Source: Anaerolineae bacterium
Lineage (GTDB): Bacteria; Chloroflexota; Anaerolineae; Caldilineales; Caldilineaceae
DNA length: 64,000 nucleotides
Reading direction: 5' to 3'
Assembly: GCA_030432295.1 (NCBI GenBank)
Contig: JAUIHI010000015.1
Location: 1 to 64,000, forward strand
A model generated the notes under the pieces. That model had not been told where the DNA came from, made no database searches, and worked only from the letters and a program-made list of their open reading frames with translations. Below are positions 2,032 to 63,573 of this stretch, piece after piece; position 1 is the stretch's first letter; each line of letters starts with the position of its first letter. The translations under genes and the position numbers were made by a program.

Positions 2032-4507
2032 TGTTGTCCGTCACCAAATGGGCCACAGTCACACCGTCGCCCCCTTCGCCCAGATCGCCGGAGCGATATT
2101 TGCTCACCAGCGGATGCTCGCGCAGGATATTGCGCACAGCGTCGCGCATGGCCCCGGTCCCTTTGCCGTGGATGATACGCACCCAGGGCAGATTGCCCAA
2201 ATAGGCGTTGTCCAGATAGTCGTCGAGTTGGGCCAGACCCGAATCGACCCGTTCGCCGCGCAGGTCCAGTTCCATCCGGTTGCCGTCGGTGCTGCGGTTC
2301 GAGCGCATCTGGATTTTGATTGGATTGGGCGCGACCTGCTCTTTCGGCGCTTTGCTGCGCAGTTCCAGACGGCGGATAGGCAGTTTCAGGCGGAAGTTGC
2401 CCACCTGCACGTCGGCCTCTTTGGCCTCGCCGCCACGGAAGTCGATGCCCAGCACTTCGCCGCTGGCCTGGAGGGTGGGCACAAAGACCCGATCCCCCAC
2501 TTCAATCGGCCCGGCCAGCCGCTCTGCCGGGGACTGGGGCGTAGCCACGTCCCGCTCCACCCGGCCCTCGACTTCGCCTTCCCGTTGGTTGAGAATCTCC
2601 CGGGCCTCGGCCAGGAACTGTTCGTGGACTGTCTCGCCACCCACCAGCCCGCCCCGTTCCATCTGGCGGCGGAAGTTTTCGATCTCCCGGCGGATTTCGG
2701 CCAGTTCGTTCTGCATTGTCTGGCGGGTCTCGGCGATGACCTCCCGCCGCACCTCTTCGATCTTTGCCAACTGATAGCGCAGATCGGATTCGATGGCCTG
2801 GACGTGGCGTTCCCGCTCTTTCGTCTGTTCCAGAACCCGATGGGCCTCCTGGCGGGTGCTGCGCACGTCGTCCAGCAGAGAATCGACTTCCAATGCTTCG
2901 GGACGCACAATCGACTCGGCTTTGTCCACAATCACCGGGTTCAGCCCCAGACGCCGGGCAATCGTCAGCGCATTCGAGCGCCCCGGCAGACCGATGCTCA
3001 ACTCAAAAGTCGGGCTGAGGCTCTGTACATCGAACTCCACCGATGCGTTGCGCACGCCGGGGGTGTTGTGGGCGTAGAGTTTCAGGTCGCTGTAGTGGGT
3101 GGTGGCCAGGGTCGTAATGCCCCGATCGCGCAGATTGTCCAGCAACGCCATCGCCAACGCCGAGCCTTCGTCCGGGTCGGTCCCTGCGCCCAACTCGTCC
3201 AGCAGGACAAGACTGCTGGGGTCGGCCTCTTCCAGCACCCGGATGATATTCGTCATGTGGCTGCTGAATGTGCTGAGATTCTGCTCAATCGACTGTTCGT
3301 CGCCGATGTCCGCATACACGCCCTCAAAGACGGCCAGTTCGCTGCCATCCTCCACGGGAATCATCAGCCCGGACTGGGCCATCAGTGTGAGCAGGCCGAC
3401 GGTCTTCAATGTGACCGTCTTGCCGCCGGTGTTGGGGCCGGTGACGACGAGCATATAATAGTCGTCGCCAAAATAGACATCGATGGGGACGACCGTCTCC
3501 TGGTCCAGCAGGGGGTGGCGGGCCTGGCGGAAGTCCAGCACCGAACCGGGATGGGCCATCGGCTCCAATTCGTCGCCGTCCTCGTCCGTGCCCATTGGGA
3601 TGAGCGGCGGCTTGGCCTGAAAGCCCCGAATCTTTGGCGCACGGGCGTCCAGGGCGTAGGCGTATTTGGCCTTGGCAAAGGTGAAGTCGAGGAGGGAAAG
3701 GGTGTTGACGTTGCGGATAATATAGGGCGCTTCGTCGGCGACCAGATCAGAAAGCTCGGCCAGAATGCGCCGCACTTCCTTCTCCTCCTCCAATTCCAAT
3801 TCTCGCACCGCGTTGTTCTGTTCCACCACCTTAATCGGTTCAATGAAAAAGGTGGCGCCGCTGGAGGACTGGTCGTGGACGATGCCCTGAATGTGGCCTT
3901 TGTGCTCGGCCCGCACGGGGATCACATAGCGGCCCTGGCGCTGGGTGACAATCGCCTCTTGCAAATATTCTTTGATACCGCTGCTCTGGACCAGCCGGTC
4001 CAGCGTGCTGAGCAGCCTGTCCTGGGCCACCCGCAGTTGGGAGCGAATTCTGGAAAGTTCCGCGCTGGCCCCGTCCACCACTTCGCCCCGGCCGTTGATG
4101 CAGCGGCTGATCTCGGCGATGACGTGATCGCAGGGTTCGATGACAAAGGCGATGTCCGAGAGGCGGGGGAACTGGCGACCCAGCCGGGTGAGGGTCTGGC
4201 GCAAGCTGCGGGCGCGCAGAAGCGTCGTGCGGATGTCTACCATTTCCATAGGCAGCAGACCCGCTCCCCGCTCGGCCCGGTTGACCAGCGAGCGCACGTC
4301 GTGGACGCCGCCGAAATGGATGTCCGTCTTCTGGTCGAGCAGACGCCAGGCCTCGTCGGTCTGCTGCATGGACTCCTGCACCGTGCGCAGGTCGTCGCTG
4401 GGCAGCAACGAACGGGCCAGTTCCATCCCGCCTTCAAAGGAGCAGAATGTGACCAGCCGTTCGAGGATTTTGTTATATTCCAGAACGCGTATTGTATGTG
4501 GATTCAT
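2024..4507 (-). CDS. mutS2: Endonuclease MutS2 / ribosome-rescue ATPase
   Basis: The 827-residue protein has the MutS2 order: N-terminal core/lever region starting MNPHTIRVLEYNKILERL, and an ABC-type ATPase with Walker A GPNTGGKTVTLKT at about residue 353. The Walker B LVLLDELGAGTDPDEGSAL follows. Then come a long charged coiled coil (about 510-640) and a C-terminal Smr nuclease domain (ELDLRGERV, then IIHGKGTGAMRDAV; about 745-820). Known members suppress recombination, or split collided ribosomes using the Smr domain. Length is slightly above the usual 780-790. There is no clear Shine-Dalgarno, but the start fits the family. The reading frame is intact. Confidence 0.96.
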   Translation of the reverse strand: MNPHTIRVLEYNKILERLVTFCSFEGGMELARSLLPSDDLRTVQESMQQTDEAWRLLDQKTDIHFGGVHDVRSLVNRAERGAGLLPMEMVDIRTTLLRARSLRQTLTRLGRQFPRLSDIAFVIEPCDHVIAEISRCINGRGEVVDGASAELSRIRSQLRVAQDRLLSTLDRLVQSSGIKEYLQEAIVTQRQGRYVIPVRAEHKGHIQGIVHDQSSSGATFFIEPIKVVEQNNAVRELELEEEKEVRRILAELSDLVADEAPYIIRNVNTLSLLDFTFAKAKYAYALDARAPKIRGFQAKPPLIPMGTDEDGDELEPMAHPGSVLDFRQARHPLLDQETVVPIDVYFGDDYYMLVVTGPNTGGKTVTLKTVGLLTLMAQSGLMIPVEDGSELAVFEGVYADIGDEQSIEQNLSTFSSHMTNIIRVLEEADPSSLVLLDELGAGTDPDEGSALAMALLDNLRDRGITTLATTHYSDLKLYAHNTPGVRNASVEFDVQSLSPTFELSIGLPGRSNALTIARRLGLNPVIVDKAESIVRPEALEVDSLLDDVRSTRQEAHRVLEQTKERERHVQAIESDLRYQLAKIEEVRREVIAETRQTMQNELAEIRREIENFRRQMERGGLVGGETVHEQFLAEAREILNQREGEVEGRVERDVATPQSPAERLAGPIEVGDRVFVPTLQASGEVLGIDFRGGEAKEADVQVGNFRLKLPIRRLELRSKAPKEQVAPNPIKIQMRSNRSTDGNRMELDLRGERVDSGLAQLDDYLDNAYLGNLPWVRIIHGKGTGAMRDAVRNILREHPLVSKYRSGDLGEGGDGVTVAHLVTDNIG

Positions 4508-7898: not shown

Positions 7899-7955
7899 GA
7901 TAGAACGCGGATCACCGCGGATTCTCGCCGATTGAACCAGCGGTAATCCGCGTTT
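7899..7955. repeat. Dispersed repeat, family ATAGAACGCGGAT (46-nt type)
   Basis: GATAGAACGCGGATCACCGC begins a unit collinear with the 46-nt repeats at 52095-52140 and 54150-54195. It is followed by an inverted partial copy ending TAATCCGCGTTT. The repeat stands between pckA and the SDR terminator. The remainder of 7743-8042 holds the pckA upstream region and the terminator at 7977-8016. Confidence 0.7.
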
Positions 7956-7976
7956 CCGCTTGCGTCTTGGCCAGCT

Positions 7977-13404: not shown

Positions 13405-13498
13405 AAAAGCACACGGATTGGCACGGATGGGATAGATTCACACGGATTCCCTCTGCGCAATCTGCGTTTATCTGCGAAAATCTGCGTCCCATTTTTTG
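13405..13498. repeat. Word array, family AATCTGCG / CACGGATT
   Basis: Iterated words CACACGGATT, AATCTGCGTTTATCTGCG and AATCTGCGTCC fill the gap between the ceramidase-like stop (13500) and the M20 start. It is less symmetrical than the other arrays. Related words occur at 16994-17057. Confidence 0.65.
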
Positions 13499-16993: not shown

Positions 16994-17222
16994 TTATCCA
17001 CAGATTTCGCAGATTTTCACAGAGAAAATCGATGAGAATCTGCGAAATCTGTAGTAGTCAAGAAGATGGTGGAAGTTTCAACGCAAAGACGCAAAGGAGC
17101 AGAGACGCAAAGAAATTGCTTTTCTCTCTGTGCCTTTGCCTCTTTGCCTCTTTGCGTTAAGAAATAGCCATTCCACCATCCCGTTGACCAGTACAAGAAT
17201 CTGCGAAATCTGTGGATAGTTT
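16994..17222. repeat. Nested word arrays (families TTCGCAGATT and AACGCAAAGACGC)
   Basis: The 336-bp stretch 16964-17299 has no gene. Its outer arms are ATCCACAGATTTCGCAGATT (16997-17016) and the reverse complement AATCTGCGAAATCTGTGGAT (17199-17218). Nested inside (17068-17178) is an array of AACGCAAAGACGCAAAGG words with its complement CTCTTTGCCTCTTTGCG. The inner family recurs at 41090-41174. This looks like one repeat inserted into another. Confidence 0.8.
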
Positions 17223-21962: not shown

Positions 21963-22488
21963 TTTCTGACTCCTGTCGCAATAATAACGTCATCCAGTCG
22001 ATGTCGTAGTAGCGGTCGTCGATTTTGATGTAGCGCGGCTCCCGGTGGGAGAAGACAAAGCCGAAGCGCTCGTATAGCCGACGGGCGGGCTCGTTGCCAA
22101 CGGTCACCGCCAGATTGATCTCTTCCAGACCGGGCAGTTGGCGGGTGTGATTGACCGCGTGTTCCAACAGCAGTCGCCCCAATCCTCTGCCTCGCTGTGT
22201 CGGCGTCACATACATCTGATAGATGCCGCCCCGGTGGCGCACCTTCAGTCCGCCGTCCCGGCCAAAGCCGATCAGCCCGTTCAGTTCGTCTTCGACAAAG
22301 ACGCCGAAGAGGGAAAAGCGTTCGCTCTGGGAGCGCAGCCGATCCGCCACATCGCCCAACGGCTGCACGGCGAAATCCTCGGCGGAGGAGCCAAAGGCTT
22401 CCGGGTGTTCCTGCAATGCCTGCAAACGCACCCGTCGATAGGCGGCTGCGTCGTCTGCGGTCAACAGGCGTACGATTGCTTGATCCAT
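21955..22488 (-). CDS. GNAT family N-acetyltransferase
   Basis: A 177-residue GNAT protein with the acetyl-CoA loop TQRGRGLGRLLLEHAV (about 107-122, R/QxxGxG/A) and EINLAVTVGNEPARRLYERFGF. Substrate unknown; the C-terminal RYIKIDDRYYDIDWMTLLL is common among GNATs acting on small amines or protein N-termini. It is the first gene after the T-box terminator. GGGGGAAGAG precedes the ATG. A small hairpin (22502-22537) separates it from the T-box terminator. Confidence 0.85.
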   Translation of the reverse strand: MDQAIVRLLTADDAAAYRRVRLQALQEHPEAFGSSAEDFAVQPLGDVADRLRSQSERFSLFGVFVEDELNGLIGFGRDGGLKVRHRGGIYQMYVTPTQRGRGLGRLLLEHAVNHTRQLPGLEEINLAVTVGNEPARRLYERFGFVFSHREPRYIKIDDRYYDIDWMTLLLRQESEND

Positions 22489-52077: not shown

Positions 52078-52094
52078 TAAAGTTCGTTCCTAAA

Positions 52095-52140
52095 GAATAG
52101 AACGCGGATTTAGCGGATCGGGCGGATTCCCGCGGATATT
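52095..52140. repeat. 46-nt solo repeat, family GAATAGAACGCGGAT, between nuoEF and nuoG
   Basis: GAATAGAACGCGGATTTAGC begins a 46-nt unit that aligns without gaps to the terminal repeats of the GxxExxY cassette (54150-54195), with about 38 of 46 identical. Confidence 0.85.
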
Positions 52141-52165: not shown

Positions 52166-54139
52166 TCAGTCCCCCGGCACAAACTCGTCGTGGAGGACAA
52201 TCCGCTCGCCCTGGGGCTTCTGCTCGTTCTGGTGCAGGCCGCTGGGCGTGTGGGTGTCGGGCCGGTAGATGGGACGGATGGGAATATCCGGGCCGACGCT
52301 CGACGGGTTCGTCGCTTCGATGTGATCCAGGAATTCGTGGCGGAACTTGGCCAGATTGCTCTGCATCCCCCACACCGATGCTTCGCCAAAGGGGCAGAAG
52401 CTCTTGCCAGCGATATTGCGGGCGATATATTCGAGCAGTTCCAGGTCTTTCTCCCGGCCCTGGCCCTCTTCGATGCGCAGCATAATTTTTTCCAGCCACG
52501 CGCCCCCTTCCCGACAGGGGGTGCATTTGCCGCAGCTTTCTTCCCGGTAGAAGGAAAGGGTGCGCCGGGCGATCTCCACCATCGAAAAGCGCTCGTCGAT
52601 GACAATCACACCGGCAGAGCCGAGCAGGGAACCGGCCGCGGCTACGCTCTCGTAGTCCAGGGGCGTGTCCATCTGGTCGGGCGTGAGCAGTTTCATCGAC
52701 AGGCCGCCGGGGACAATTGCTTTGATGGGCACGTCGTCCAACTCCGGTCCGCCGCCGTATTCGTAGATCAGGTCGCGCAGGGTAGTGGCGTGGGGGAGTT
52801 CGTATAGTCCCGGTCGCTTCACATTGCCGCTGAGACAGAAGATGCGCATCCCCGCGCTCTGCTCTGTGCCGTAGCTGCGATACCACTCGACGCCGTGGCG
52901 CATGACGTGGGTGACGTTGGCGATGGATTCCACATTGTTGACAATTGTAGGCTTGGCGTACAACCCTTCCACCGCGGGGAAGGGGGGCTTGAGCCGGGGC
53001 TGGCCCCGATAGCCTTCCAGACTGGAAAGCTGGGCAGTCTCTTCGCCGCACTCGTAGGCGCCCGCGCCTCGGTGCATCACTACTTCCAGTTTCTTACCTG
53101 TGCCGAAGCAGTTGTCGCCCAGATAGCCCGCGGCTTTGGCCTCGGCAATGGCTGCCTGCATCCGGGTGTAGGCAAAGTAGTATTCACCCCGAATATAGAC
53201 GTATGCCTGCTCCGCCTCGATGGCGAAGGCGCTCATAACAATCCCCTCCAACAATTGGTGGGGGTCGTATTCCATAATCATCCGGTCTTTGAAGGTTCCC
53301 GGCTCGGATTCGTCGGCGTTGACCACCAGATAGCGGGGGAAGACGCCTTTGGGCAGAAAGCCCCATTTGACGCCGGTGGGGAAGCCCGCGCCGCCCCGGC
53401 CGCGAATGCCACTGGCCTTCACCTGCTCGATCACCGCTGCAGATTCCATTTCGCTCAGCACCCGTTTGGCCGTGGCATAGCCGCCGTCGGCCTCGTAGCT
53501 GGCGAGGGTATGGCTGTCGGGCGTCTTGACCCGGGCGAGCAGATATTTGGGGTCCATCCCGCCGTGGTTGTAAGGACCAGCGGTGACACCCGCGTTTTCC
53601 GGGTCGCCTTCCGGGGTCCAGCGCTCCAGCGTCGTGAAACCCTTGCCCGATTTGAGCAGATCGACGACCTTCTCCACATCTTCCGCCGAGTCCAGATTTT
53701 CGAAGTAGCGAATCTGACCGGTCTTCTGGTCAGTTACAGCCGCCATCGGCGCGGTGCCGCAGGAGCCGAGACATTCCATGTGGTCCAGGCCAAACTGGCC
53801 GTCTTCGGTCTTCTGGCCGTGATGGACGCCGAGGGTCTCCTCGAAGTGGTGCATACACTGGCGGCTGCCCCGCAACAGACAGGGGACGTTCGTGCAGACT
53901 TCCACGTGGTATTCGCCCTTCGGCTCCTCGTGGAACATATTGTAGAAACCGACGACCGCGGAGACCTCCACAGGGGCGATGCCCAGGATTTCGGCCAGTT
54001 CGTTCTGGGCCTCCACCGGGCAATAGCCGAACTCCCGCTGGATGACGTAGAGCGCAGGCAACACCGCCGAGCGCTGCCGTCCGGCAGGGTAGCGGGTCAT
54101 AATTTCGTCGATTTCTGAACGTATAGAATCTGTAATCAT
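52166..54139 (-). CDS. nuoEF: NADH:quinone oxidoreductase subunits E and F, fused
   Basis: A 657-residue fusion. Residues 1-190 are NuoE: helical start (ITDSIRSEIDEIMTRYP), [2Fe-2S] ligands in CTNVPC and CLGSC. Residues 200-657 are NuoF: GIRGRGGAGFPTGVKW (NADH/FMN site), then GAYECGEETAQLSSLEG and SCGKCTPCREGG for the N3 cluster. Fusing E and F guarantees equal amounts of the NADH-oxidising module. ATG at 54139 has GAGG 6 nt upstream. Separate nuoE and nuoF are usual, so the fusion is notable but occurs elsewhere. Confidence 0.96.
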   Translation of the reverse strand: MITDSIRSEIDEIMTRYPAGRQRSAVLPALYVIQREFGYCPVEAQNELAEILGIAPVEVSAVVGFYNMFHEEPKGEYHVEVCTNVPCLLRGSRQCMHHFEETLGVHHGQKTEDGQFGLDHMECLGSCGTAPMAAVTDQKTGQIRYFENLDSAEDVEKVVDLLKSGKGFTTLERWTPEGDPENAGVTAGPYNHGGMDPKYLLARVKTPDSHTLASYEADGGYATAKRVLSEMESAAVIEQVKASGIRGRGGAGFPTGVKWGFLPKGVFPRYLVVNADESEPGTFKDRMIMEYDPHQLLEGIVMSAFAIEAEQAYVYIRGEYYFAYTRMQAAIAEAKAAGYLGDNCFGTGKKLEVVMHRGAGAYECGEETAQLSSLEGYRGQPRLKPPFPAVEGLYAKPTIVNNVESIANVTHVMRHGVEWYRSYGTEQSAGMRIFCLSGNVKRPGLYELPHATTLRDLIYEYGGGPELDDVPIKAIVPGGLSMKLLTPDQMDTPLDYESVAAAGSLLGSAGVIVIDERFSMVEIARRTLSFYREESCGKCTPCREGGAWLEKIMLRIEEGQGREKDLELLEYIARNIAGKSFCPFGEASVWGMQSNLAKFRHEFLDHIEATNPSSVGPDIPIRPIYRPDTHTPSGLHQNEQKPQGERIVLHDEFVPGD

Positions 54140-54149
54140 AAAGACCTCA

Positions 54150-54650
54150 GAATAGAACGCGGATGACGCGGATTGGGCTGATTCAGGCGGATTTTGTTTG
54201 GAGATGCTTCTTGCGCCGGTTGCTGAAAATGCGACGTTCAAATTCGGGCTTTTTCCCGAAATTGAAAACAAAGCCGATTTCGCAATGGGTGGCGCGCAGG
54301 TAGTTCTGCAACTGGGCGACGAAAGAATCGTGCATTGCTTCCGCTGCTTTGATCTCCAAAATAACCCGATTCTCTACCACCAAATCCGCATAATAATCTC
54401 CGACGAGTTTTCCGCTGAAATAGACTTCGATATTCCGCTGTTGTTCCACCTGCAAGCCGCGCCGCTCAAATTCCTGTAGCATTGCGGTCTCGTACACTTT
54501 TTCTAGAAAACCATATCCAAGCGCGTTGTAGACAGTGTAATATACGTTGATGATCTGATCTGTCAGCTCGGCTTGCCGTAAAGCCATTGCGAATCCCCTA
54601 CTTAAAAATCCGCGTCAATCAGCCTAATCCGCGTCATCCGCGTTCTATTC
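54150..54650. mobile_element. Candidate GxxExxY cassette bounded by 46-bp inverted repeats
   Basis: A 501-bp unit: a GxxExxY gene between 54150-54195 (starts GAATAGAACGCGGATGACGC) and 54605-54650, whose reverse complement is identical at 43 of 46 positions. The right end touches the nuoCD stop codon; the left end lies just before the nuoEF Shine-Dalgarno and overlaps the last codons of the gene. Solo copies of the repeat occur at 52095-52140 and 7899-7955. No target-site duplication was identified. Confidence 0.62.
54183..54587 (-). CDS. GxxExxY protein (PD-(D/E)XK nuclease-like)
   Basis: A 134-residue protein with the signature ALGYGFLEKVYETAM (GxxExxY, residues 23-37), then DYYADLVVENRVILEIKAAE (residues 64-83), where D...E-x-K is the PD-(D/E)XK nuclease site, and AQLQNYLRAT. 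The basic C-terminus RRKKHLQTKSA is encoded partly by the flanking repeat. Many genomes carry numerous copies of this family with unknown function. It interrupts the nuo operon between nuoCD and nuoEF, in the same direction. No clear Shine-Dalgarno was defined. Confidence 0.88.
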   Translation of the reverse strand: MALRQAELTDQIINVYYTVYNALGYGFLEKVYETAMLQEFERRGLQVEQQRNIEVYFSGKLVGDYYADLVVENRVILEIKAAEAMHDSFVAQLQNYLRATHCEIGFVFNFGKKPEFERRIFSNRRKKHLQTKSA

Positions 54651-56489
54651 TTACCTGTCCACTTCCCCCAGCACAATATCAATCGATCCGATATTTGTCA
54701 CAATATCCGACAACATTTCTCCCCGGCTCATTGTATTGATGGCGTATAAGTTATTATAGCTCGGCCCGTGGATGTGCAGGCGATAGGGGCGGGGCGAGCC
54801 GTCGCTGTAGAGATAGAAGCCCAGTTCGCCTTTGCTGCTTTCGACCCCGTGATAGTAGAAACCGGGGTTGACGTGAAAGCCTTCGGTCATCAGTTTGAAG
54901 TGATGAATGAGGGACTCCATACTCAGGTCCAGCTCGGCCCGGGGCGGCAGAGAAACTTTGCGGTTGTCGGTCTTGTAAATGCCGTCAGGCAGATTTGCGA
55001 TGGCCTGGCTGATAATGCGCAGACTCTGGCGCATCTCTTCCATGCGCACCAGATAGCGGGCGAAGCCGTCGCCGTCGGTCTGCACCGGCACTTTGAAGTC
55101 GTAGTTTTCGTAGCCGCTGTAGGGCATATCCCGGCGCAGGTCCCAGTCCACGCCGCTGCCCCGCAGCATCGGGCCAGTCAGCCCCATTTCCATCACCTGC
55201 TCCCGGCTGAGAACGCCGATGCCCTGCAAACGCTCCTGCCAGACGGCCTGATCAGTCAGCATCCGCTCGTAGTCGTCGATTTTGCCAGGCATCACCCGCA
55301 CAAAATCCTGCAAATGGGTGAGGAAGGCTTCGGGCAGATCGGCCCAGACGCCACCGACACGAATGTAGCTGACGGTCAGCCGTGCGCCGCAGACCATTTC
55401 GAAGAGGTCGAGAATCCGTTCCCGCTCTCGGGTGGCGTACATTAATAAGGACATCCCCGTGCCGGAAACGTCCAGCACGTGGGTGGAAAGCCAGAAGAGA
55501 TGGGAAGAGATGCGCTGCAACTCGCCCATAATCACCCGAATGACCTGCGCCCGTTCGGGAATCTCCACGCCCAGCATATGCTCCACAGTCAGGACATAGG
55601 CCAGATTGTTGTTCATCCCGGAGAGATAGTCCATCCGGTCGGTGTAGTAGACAAAATCTTTGTAGCGTTTGGTCTCGCCGGTCTTCTCAAAGCCGCTGTG
55701 CAGATAGCCCAGGTCCGGGTCGATGCTCACTACGCGCTCGCCGTCCAACTCCACCACCAGACGCAGCACGCCGTGGGTGCTGGGGTGGTGGGGACCCATA
55801 TTGATCACCATATTTTCCCGGTTCATGCCGGGGGGCATATCGGGCGCGTGGCTCAAGGCGGGGAGAATCTGCGTGCCCAGGGTTTCAAACTCCGGGTCGT
55901 CCCAGGTCAGGGAAAAGGGGACTTCCTCGCCGCCCACAGGGATATGTTTTTGTAGGGGGTGATTGGGCCACTGTTTGGGCATGAGAATGCGGCGGGGGTC
56001 CGGGTGACCGGTGTAGCTGATGCCCATCAGGTCGGCGCATTCCCGCTCTGGCCACTCCGCGCCTTGATAGGCGGCGGTCAAGCTGGGAATACTGGGTTTG
56101 TCGCCGCCCGCGCAGTCGGCCACCAGTGTGATGTGCTGCTTGCGGCTGTAGGAGCGCAACTGGGCAACCGACTGAAAGCGGGCCGCGCCAGCGCCGATGG
56201 GTAATTCCTTGCGGTCCAGGCCGGTCACGTCGATCAGAGACTCGTAGCGCAGTTGGGGATCGCTCTTGAGAAACTGGGCGACTTCCACCAGTTTTTCCGG
56301 CTTGACGTAGAGGACCTGATTGCCGTTGTGCATCCCCGCAGCCAGCACATCCCCGCCGAAGCGCTCGGCCACGCGGGTGGTGTCGGCGCTTTCGCCGCTG
56401 GGCATAGGGGCCACGGCAGGAATCCCCGGCACATTCAGGCTGGGCAGGGTTTCGTAGGGACGGACGCGGGGTGATGTGTTCAGTGGCAT
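54651..56489 (-). CDS. nuoCD: NADH:quinone oxidoreductase subunits C and D, fused
   Basis: A 612-residue fusion: NuoC (about 40-200; GAEWPERECADLMGISYTGHPDPRR, split at residue 142 onward) followed by NuoD (about 225-612; MVINMGPHHPSTHGVLRLVV, RGSGVDWDLRRDMPYSGYEN) ending DIVLGEVDR. NuoD carries the quinone-site His and Tyr. As in E. coli, the fusion is known from several phyla. The gene is followed at once (stop 54651-54653) by the 46-nt repeat. Confidence 0.96.
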   Translation of the reverse strand: MPLNTSPRVRPYETLPSLNVPGIPAVAPMPSGESADTTRVAERFGGDVLAAGMHNGNQVLYVKPEKLVEVAQFLKSDPQLRYESLIDVTGLDRKELPIGAGAARFQSVAQLRSYSRKQHITLVADCAGGDKPSIPSLTAAYQGAEWPERECADLMGISYTGHPDPRRILMPKQWPNHPLQKHIPVGGEEVPFSLTWDDPEFETLGTQILPALSHAPDMPPGMNRENMVINMGPHHPSTHGVLRLVVELDGERVVSIDPDLGYLHSGFEKTGETKRYKDFVYYTDRMDYLSGMNNNLAYVLTVEHMLGVEIPERAQVIRVIMGELQRISSHLFWLSTHVLDVSGTGMSLLMYATRERERILDLFEMVCGARLTVSYIRVGGVWADLPEAFLTHLQDFVRVMPGKIDDYERMLTDQAVWQERLQGIGVLSREQVMEMGLTGPMLRGSGVDWDLRRDMPYSGYENYDFKVPVQTDGDGFARYLVRMEEMRQSLRIISQAIANLPDGIYKTDNRKVSLPPRAELDLSMESLIHHFKLMTEGFHVNPGFYYHGVESSKGELGFYLYSDGSPRPYRLHIHGPSYNNLYAINTMSRGEMLSDIVTNIGSIDIVLGEVDR

Positions 56490-59700: not shown

Positions 59701-59770
59701 ACAAGGCGAAAAATTGTCATCGCCCTGAATTATTCTCGAATCATTTCATGCAGGAAGCGCAGGTTTTTCA

Positions 59771-60292
59771 ATGCCAGAATTGCCTCCCCTACCCACGATT
59801 AGCCAACTGGTCTTTACTGGCTTTGCTCTCTTCACCTGTGCTTCGGCGCTGGGTGTGGTGCTGGCCCGCAATCTGTTCCACGGCGCGCTGGCTTTGGTGG
59901 CAACGCTCTTTGGCGTGGCGGGTCTTTATGTGATGCTGGAAGCTGAGTTTCTGGCCGTCAGCCAGGTGCTGGTCTATGTGGGCGCGATTGCCACCCTTAT
60001 CACTTTTGCCATTATGCTCACCCGTTCGATGATGTACGGCAAGACTTCGCCGCTCAACCGGCAGTGGGGCAAGACCGGACTCTTTGCGGTGATGATCTTT
60101 CTGGCTCTCTACGGTTTTGTCGGCTCGATTCCCTGGGCAGACAGCGCTCCGGCGGTGCTGGCTGACGAGTCGATGATTGCCGCGTTGGGTGTGGAATTTG
60201 TCACCAACTACGTCGTCGCCTTTGAGGTAATGGGTCTGTTGTTGCTGGTGGCGCTGGTCGGCGCGGTGATGCTGGCCCGGGATAACAATTAG
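59771..60292 (+). CDS. nuoJ: NADH:quinone oxidoreductase subunit J, second copy
   Basis: A 173-residue NuoJ paralogue: LYVMLEAEFLAVSQVLVYVG, then AIATLITFAIMLTRSMMYG and LLLLVALVGAVMLARDNN. The pi-bulge helix with the conserved Tyr/Gly is kept. It follows nuoH2 after a repeat and precedes nuoK2, the usual J-K order. Confidence 0.93.
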   Translation: MPELPPLPTISQLVFTGFALFTCASALGVVLARNLFHGALALVATLFGVAGLYVMLEAEFLAVSQVLVYVGAIATLITFAIMLTRSMMYGKTSPLNRQWGKTGLFAVMIFLALYGFVGSIPWADSAPAVLADESMIAALGVEFVTNYVVAFEVMGLLLLVALVGAVMLARDNN

Positions 60293-63440: not shown

Positions 63441-63573
63441 GAAAGCGGACGCAGATTTTGATGATGTATCTGTCAAGGTAATCAGTAAAACCTGCGTCCT
63501 CCCAGAAGTTGATCAAGACTCTTTGAGTCACGAAATATTAGTACACCTCGTCCGTTCCTGAGGAGAAGATTTC

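Follow-up and report, generated by a model that had tools for sequence, protein, structure and literature searches.

The nuo locus

In the window (the whole analysed stretch of 64,000 nt from a Caldilineaceae genome, Chloroflexota), a gene of the GxxExxY family with inverted flanking repeats is inserted between nuoCD (54651..56489, minus strand), its upstream operon neighbour, and nuoEF (52166..54139, minus strand; start set at the ATG beside the repeat), its downstream neighbour. The gene (54183..54587, minus strand) encodes a protein of 134 aa assigned to the family by profile match (PF13366/TIGR04256). The repeats, hereafter arms, are 47 nt long and identical at 44/47 positions. The left arm (54149..54195, plus strand) is a word array GCGGAT-GCGGAT-GCTGAT-GCGGAT with the outer end AGAATAGAAC, and the right arm (54605..54651, minus strand) is its inverted copy. 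The repeats are real; the first-pass annotation had described them as 46 bp with 43/46 identities. It had also placed their boundaries at the nuoCD stop codon and just before nuoEF, and the last codons of the gene within the left repeat, and the coordinates agree: the right arm begins on the final base of the nuoCD stop codon, the distance from the left arm end to the nuoE ATG is about 10-12 nt, and the final codons of the gene (from 54183) lie inside the left arm (to 54195).

A solo arm of the same family is located between nuoEF and nuoG (52094..52140, plus strand; local score 29 versus a shuffled 99th percentile of 12; E 8.6e-6 genome-wide), essentially as proposed at first (52095-52140). 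It is orthologous in three congeners and therefore old. In two congeneric contigs, G004:C13 and G006:C8, the orthologue of this solo arm is followed by an extra insert roughly 800 bp long; in G004 it starts with GGACACGGATTACACGGAT. The degenerate copy suspected near 7899 also exists (7900..7959, plus strand; score 21) and is apparently a decayed inverted pair. Altogether, the core arm pattern has six matches in the window, with 0.9 expected.

The GxxExxY protein

The window protein scores 130 bits against PF13366 (cut-off 22) and 125 bits against TIGR04256 (cut-off 35). PF13366 is its sole profile match, and there is no match to the HUH-type Y1 domain (PF01797). In an alignment of 71 proteins, positions G24, G26, E29, D68, E78, Q92 and N109 are invariant, Y96 is nearly invariant, and K80 is present in at least 90% of the sequences. 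The conserved motif set is D68, E78-x-K80 and Q92-x3-Y96, and the combination of D...ExK with QxxxY is that of RecB/Cas4-type nucleases. No relatives were found in PDB by sequence, the single match having E 0.095. The AlphaFold model (pLDDT 92) has a PD-(D/E)XK fold, and the closest structures are Cas4 SSO0001 (4ic1), with Foldseek E 3e-4 and VIA Z 9.3, and exonucleases of phages; the remaining VIA rows have Z 8.1 or below. Because of the conserved D...ExK/QxxxY residues and the similarity of the model to Cas4 and exonucleases, the protein is likely to be an active nuclease.

Longer GxxExxY proteins (about 270-305 aa), with two domains in tandem, are encoded in G001:C311, G006:C142, G058:C30, G042:C10, G016:C511 and G020:C130.

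Distribution of the family

GxxExxY genes were found in 40/61 Chloroflexota relatives and in 39/80 genomes of a Bacteroidota sample, and they occur at many different sites. They are present in 6 of 72,556 plasmid records and in none of 50,697 phage records. A contig scan with the window protein as a single query yielded few loci. Three loci are known from viral contigs; all three have flanks resembling arms, and the word of one is unusual. An archaeal genome from the phylum of G068 contains six GxxExxY genes (G166:C1), among them two pairs with identical scores, which suggests recent duplication.

Arms at other GxxExxY genes

The arms were analysed in 112 loci from four phyla. Of these, 72 come from the same genus, family and class, and the 40 further loci are mostly from Bacteroidota, with an Auribacterota MAG and a Methanophagales archaeon. 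The arms are inverted arrays in which one short word, C[AG]C-N-[AG]A-[GTA] (short form CRC-N-NAK), is repeated 3-5 times at a spacing of 8-10 nt (mode 9). Examples of the words are CGCGGAT, CACGGAT, CGCTGAT, CACGAAT, CACGAAG, CGCAAAG, CGCAGAG and CACGAAA. Under a single rule for all loci, which required four or more words of the same class no farther than 230 bp from the domain, arms were found in 78/112 loci versus 5/98 control windows taken from these loci at a distance of 700-900 bp (Fisher 5e-24). About 30% of the loci have no clear arms. The left and right arms of one locus match each other better than the 95th percentile of mismatched left/right pairs in 73% of 71 loci.

Eight independent loci were added afterwards, from viral contigs, Fusobacteriota, Gemmatimonadota, Persicobacter, Sphingomonas and Treponema, and so also from Alphaproteobacteria and Spirochaetota. 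They repeat the architecture in most cases; in one of them the arms are direct instead of inverted. Their words, which were assigned by eye and not blind, mostly agree with those of the nearest labelled protein. The Sphingomonas parapaucimobilis plasmid carries a GxxExxY gene with CGCGAAG arms between fabD and fabG (L323). The fab operon, like nuo, is an essential operon.

Co-variation of words and proteins

A maximum-likelihood tree was constructed for 72 labelled proteins, and the word class mapped on it was compared with 2000 shuffles. The word class changes 19 times on the tree, versus a shuffle mean of 38 and minimum of 30 (0/2000), and shuffling inside phyla has the same outcome. The last letter of the word changes 7 times versus 26 in shuffled data. 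One clade combines 23 proteins from Chloroflexota, Bacteroidota and Auribacterota, and 22/23 of them have GAT words. Of 23 proteins from outside Chloroflexota, 22 share the last letter of the word with the Chloroflexota protein nearest to them (expected 10.7). Clades with T-words and clades with G-words are separated by residues at protein positions 116, 95, 27, 30, 66 and 21. The co-variation holds between phyla, and therefore shared genomic background is not the explanation.

Copies of the arms in the genome

The 6.7-Mb genome that contains the window (G000), whose nearest named relatives are MAGs of Caldilineaceae and Litorilinea, has three PF13366 genes, all with arms. For the first-pass annotation, absence of its 46-nt repeats from other GxxExxY genes of the genome would have been a refutation. 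The other two genes do lack this sequence, but they have inverted arms of their own, GCCACTGATGAACACTGAT... and TAGGACGCTGATGAACGC..., with the same grammar. A single genome-wide 46-nt family serving every GxxExxY gene is thus ruled out, as each gene has its own arm sequence.

About 50 further matches to the window arm were found in the genome. Solo repeats scattered in gaps had been expected; solos do exist, and the copies elsewhere are largely inverted pairs. Gene-less inverted pairs of the window arm occur in 14 places, with partners a few to about 110 nt apart. All 14 are head-out, that is, the AGAATAGAAC end faces outward as in the gene element. One of them folds as a 91-nt hairpin (z -11). 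An ORF-based estimate of intergenic placement was discarded because of ORF overprediction.

The window contains further gene-less pairs. One of them, at 13413..13485, has GAT-class words (a CACGGAT arm and a CGCAGAT arm) and differs from the sequence at the matching site in G004. Another, formed by GGACGCAGAT... and ...CTGCGTCC, is at 63447..63499, and its site has a short form in the congener G005. A third pair, at 17083..17155, has AAG-class words (AACGCAAAGACGCAAAG...). AAG-word inverted pairs are orphans in this genome, having no cognate gene there; besides the latter pair they were observed in G000:C24 at 4059-4131, 59740-59812 and 191509-191569. The orphan pairs of the AACGCAAAG type match, in type, the arms of the GxxExxY gene L058 in the congener G003. 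This is the pattern expected after loss of a cognate gene.

Comparison of sites between genomes

The nuoCD-nuoEF site carries CGCGGAT arms in G000, G005 and G004, and CACGGAT arms with a diverged protein in G001 and G006. It is also occupied in two genomes from other genera (G017 and G010), and a gene-less remnant is present in G015. The first-pass annotation had proposed looking for an empty site in sister genomes, and one exists: in the congener G003 there are 3 nt from the stop to the start codon. The remaining readable genomes have plain spacers, and GCGTAATGCGTA-type repeats occupy nuo spacers elsewhere. No target-site duplication was seen at the empty site of G003, whose flanks have diverged. 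The insertion ends are not sharp at the base level, the congeners being too different. As the diverged protein has both arms altered, the left and right arms have changed together with the protein at this site, either by replacement or by concerted evolution. Vertical inheritance of a single insertion may be the less likely history, as monophyly of the nuo-site proteins is weakly rejected (AU p 0.04).

Gene-less arms also differ or are absent between congeners at matching sites. In G004:C13, a CGCAGAT/CGCGGAT pair is situated at 22125-22196, where the three congeners G000, G005 and G006 have a palindromic repeat of the CAGTTATCAGT type. CGCGGAT pairs are present in 9/12 genomes with a gene from the GAT clade versus 6/25 genomes without it (one family; Fisher 0.005). 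Gene-less pairs are rare in 20 other genomes, each sampled over 80 kb, which makes the dispersal lineage-specific. Matching word class to gene class across genomes in the 80-kb samples was abandoned: arms are too scarce in most samples, and coding repeats are caught as well by loose word chains. In G018, a member of the family and an 89% complete MAG, a first look produced about 400 candidate CGCGGAT pairs, and a GxxExxY gene was not found.

The only near-identical double copy of a gene element is L186/L188 in a Chitinophagales MAG (G065), where a block of 800 bp is 100% identical, arms included; one flank of the block is unrelated and the other is 65% similar. The block could result from recent copying or be an assembly artefact. 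It gives no exact transposition boundaries, as the identical block runs beyond the arms and stems from a MAG.

Four-helix-bundle genes with a similar layout

A similar layout was observed at genes of the four-helix-bundle family (S23/IVS, PF05635). In G000, 7/9 such genes (loci L325-L333, in contigs C23, C44, C54, C61, C47, C45, C25, C13 and C12) have inverted arms on both sides, built of 7-8-nt words such as GGGGATT, GGCGGAC, AAGGCAAA and TGCTGCG. Plasmid genes of this family were found in Gemmatirosa (L334), Anabaena sp. 90 (L335), Picosynechococcus (L336) and Nostoc ATCC 53789 (L337), with inverted arms of the words GGCAGGAG, AGGTGAC, AAGGAGAT and AGTCAGA. Two of them are inside CRISPR operons, in the orders cas6-gene-cas4 (L335) and cas10-gene-cmr3 (L336). 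The observed four-helix-bundle genes are situated in ordinary gene clusters.

Four-helix-bundle proteins are not known to be nucleases. That their genes share the layout is the main caution for the mechanism discussed below: the architecture may not require nuclease activity, and the copying step common to both kinds of genes may be independent of the nuclease. The heptamer repeats of Xanthomonas and Nostoc (PMC4692102) may belong with the four-helix-bundle genes and not with GxxExxY, and the intervening sequence (IVS) of Coxiella (PMC4990558) may belong with the former as well. A more general idea, which we offer tentatively and with slightly less than even confidence, is that GxxExxY and four-helix-bundle proteins, independently of one another, each have a code of short DNA words of their own, which co-evolves with the protein and is therefore readable from sequence, and form a large, domain-spanning class of elements whose gene-less derivatives account for many unexplained interspersed repeats.

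Candidate mechanism and alternatives

On balance, the locus is probably one copy of an undescribed element that consists of a small PD-(D/E)XK gene and inverted word-array arms, with REPIN-like copying of arm pairs. The most likely reading is that the word arrays are recognised by the cognate GxxExxY protein, which would drive their copying within the genome. The protein would read its word by direct contacts and bind the arrays as an oligomer. It may process the arms, either as duplex or as a single-strand hairpin of the paired arms, and this processing would promote copying of arm pairs into further intergenic gaps within the genome, in the way proposed for RAYTs and REPINs. Whole gene elements would be copied rarely and arm pairs more often, and the element would be mainly chromosomal and vertically inherited.

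One alternative, which we consider unlikely, is autoregulation or a regulon: the protein could bind the arrays as operators or RNA-hairpin sites, and the scattered copies would be regulatory, with no mobilisation. Indeed, the arms are directly at the start and stop of the gene, in transcribed intergenic gaps; the pairs form stable hairpins, and the co-variation of arms and protein would fit this as well. However, an operator needs no inverted copy behind the gene. Besides, the gene-less pairs, being head-out with constant outer ends, resemble a replicating unit, and at one and the same site congeners can have different copies or none.

Another possibility is that GxxExxY rides along as cargo, whereas the hairpin arrays are copied by a transposase (RAYT or other), by a reverse transcriptase or in the course of host replication and repair. 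The layout shared with the four-helix-bundle genes and their heptamer words suggests a common copying process, and gene-less pairs are present in genomes where the gene was not detected. Nevertheless, this seems quite improbable, as a third-party mover gives no reason for the word to track GxxExxY clades from phylum to phylum, and each protein family has its own grammar. A RAYT was rejected as the owner of the arms: none of the seven Y1 (PF01797) matches in G000 has them.

There is still less to be said for homing, in which the nuclease would cut empty alleles or sites, the element would be copied in by recombination repair, and the arms would mark the boundaries and the cut site. The PD-(D/E)XK fold, the occupation of the nuo site in several genera by diverged proteins, and the identity of the L186/L188 block, including flanking sequence, between otherwise diverged loci could be understood in this way, but it leaves tens of gene-less copies at unrelated sites unexplained, and the genes themselves are at many different sites; we consider it very improbable. 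Finally, intergenic repeats are common and several other palindromic families fill the same gaps, but that GxxExxY genes are merely among them by composition or chance is hardly conceivable given the rarity of arms in the control windows, the left/right matching and the co-variation on the tree.

For the preferred reading, a mobile word-array element with its own enzyme, the cognate repeat provides a substrate for testing the very common, uncharacterised GxxExxY family. It also proposes an owner for interspersed repeats such as the CGCAGAG, CACGAAG and CGCGGAT arrays, and the co-variation of protein and word is a natural data set on the DNA-recognition code of a tiny nuclease fold.

Comparison with known systems

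A link between GxxExxY and repeats was not found in the open papers searched, where GxxExxY and PF13366 have only passing mentions.

The closest parallel is the RAYT/REP system. RAYTs are flanked by two inverted REPs and co-evolve with them, and the abundance of the repeats is correlated with whether the gene is present (PMC2817692); doublets of REPs (REPINs) are the replicating units (PMC3116915). Two of these hallmarks, own inverted repeats and their co-variation with the protein, are observed here. The third, correlation with repeat abundance, may apply in one family (9/12 versus 6/25 genomes), the pairs being sparse in the 80-kb samples elsewhere. The gene-less unit in both systems is an inverted doublet forming a hairpin. 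However, RAYTs are IS200/IS605-like Y1 (HUH tyrosine) enzymes, whereas GxxExxY has the PD-(D/E)XK nuclease fold, and a REP is one palindrome with a GTAG-type tag, whereas the GxxExxY arms are phased arrays of short words. A parallel to RAYT/REP with an unrelated enzyme, as suggested by the first-pass annotation, gains support from the arms in other genera and phyla, the co-variation of word and protein, the empty nuo site in a sister genome and the lack of arms at the RAYTs of G000.

The intervening sequences of 23S rRNA that contain an S23 ORF have been called selfish, and in Coxiella GACAGAT heptamers were described beside the ORF (PMC4990558). They are similar in having a small ORF between terminal inverted repeats, but the protein is unrelated, the words are heptamers, and the described cases are within rRNA. 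MITEs and insertion sequences likewise have inverted ends and gene-less derivatives resembling internal deletions. In contrast, the GxxExxY element has no DDE or other transposase, its arms are word arrays, and no target-site duplication was seen. With Cas4, RecB and lambda exonuclease, the protein shares the fold and the D...ExK...QxxxY motifs, but it is much shorter, stand-alone and associated with cognate flanking repeats. The heptamers GGGAATC and GGGGA(T/C)T of Xanthomonas and Nostoc form dispersed short-word arrays, often convergent inverted pairs, and in the accessible part of their description no gene is assigned to them (PMC4692102); their period is 7, versus 8-10 in the GxxExxY arms.

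The GxxExxY element is thus neither a RAYT, its protein being a different one, nor an IVS, and no target duplication was seen that would mark it as an insertion sequence. If the proposed copying is true, the REP/RAYT lifestyle would have been reached a second time, by an independent route.
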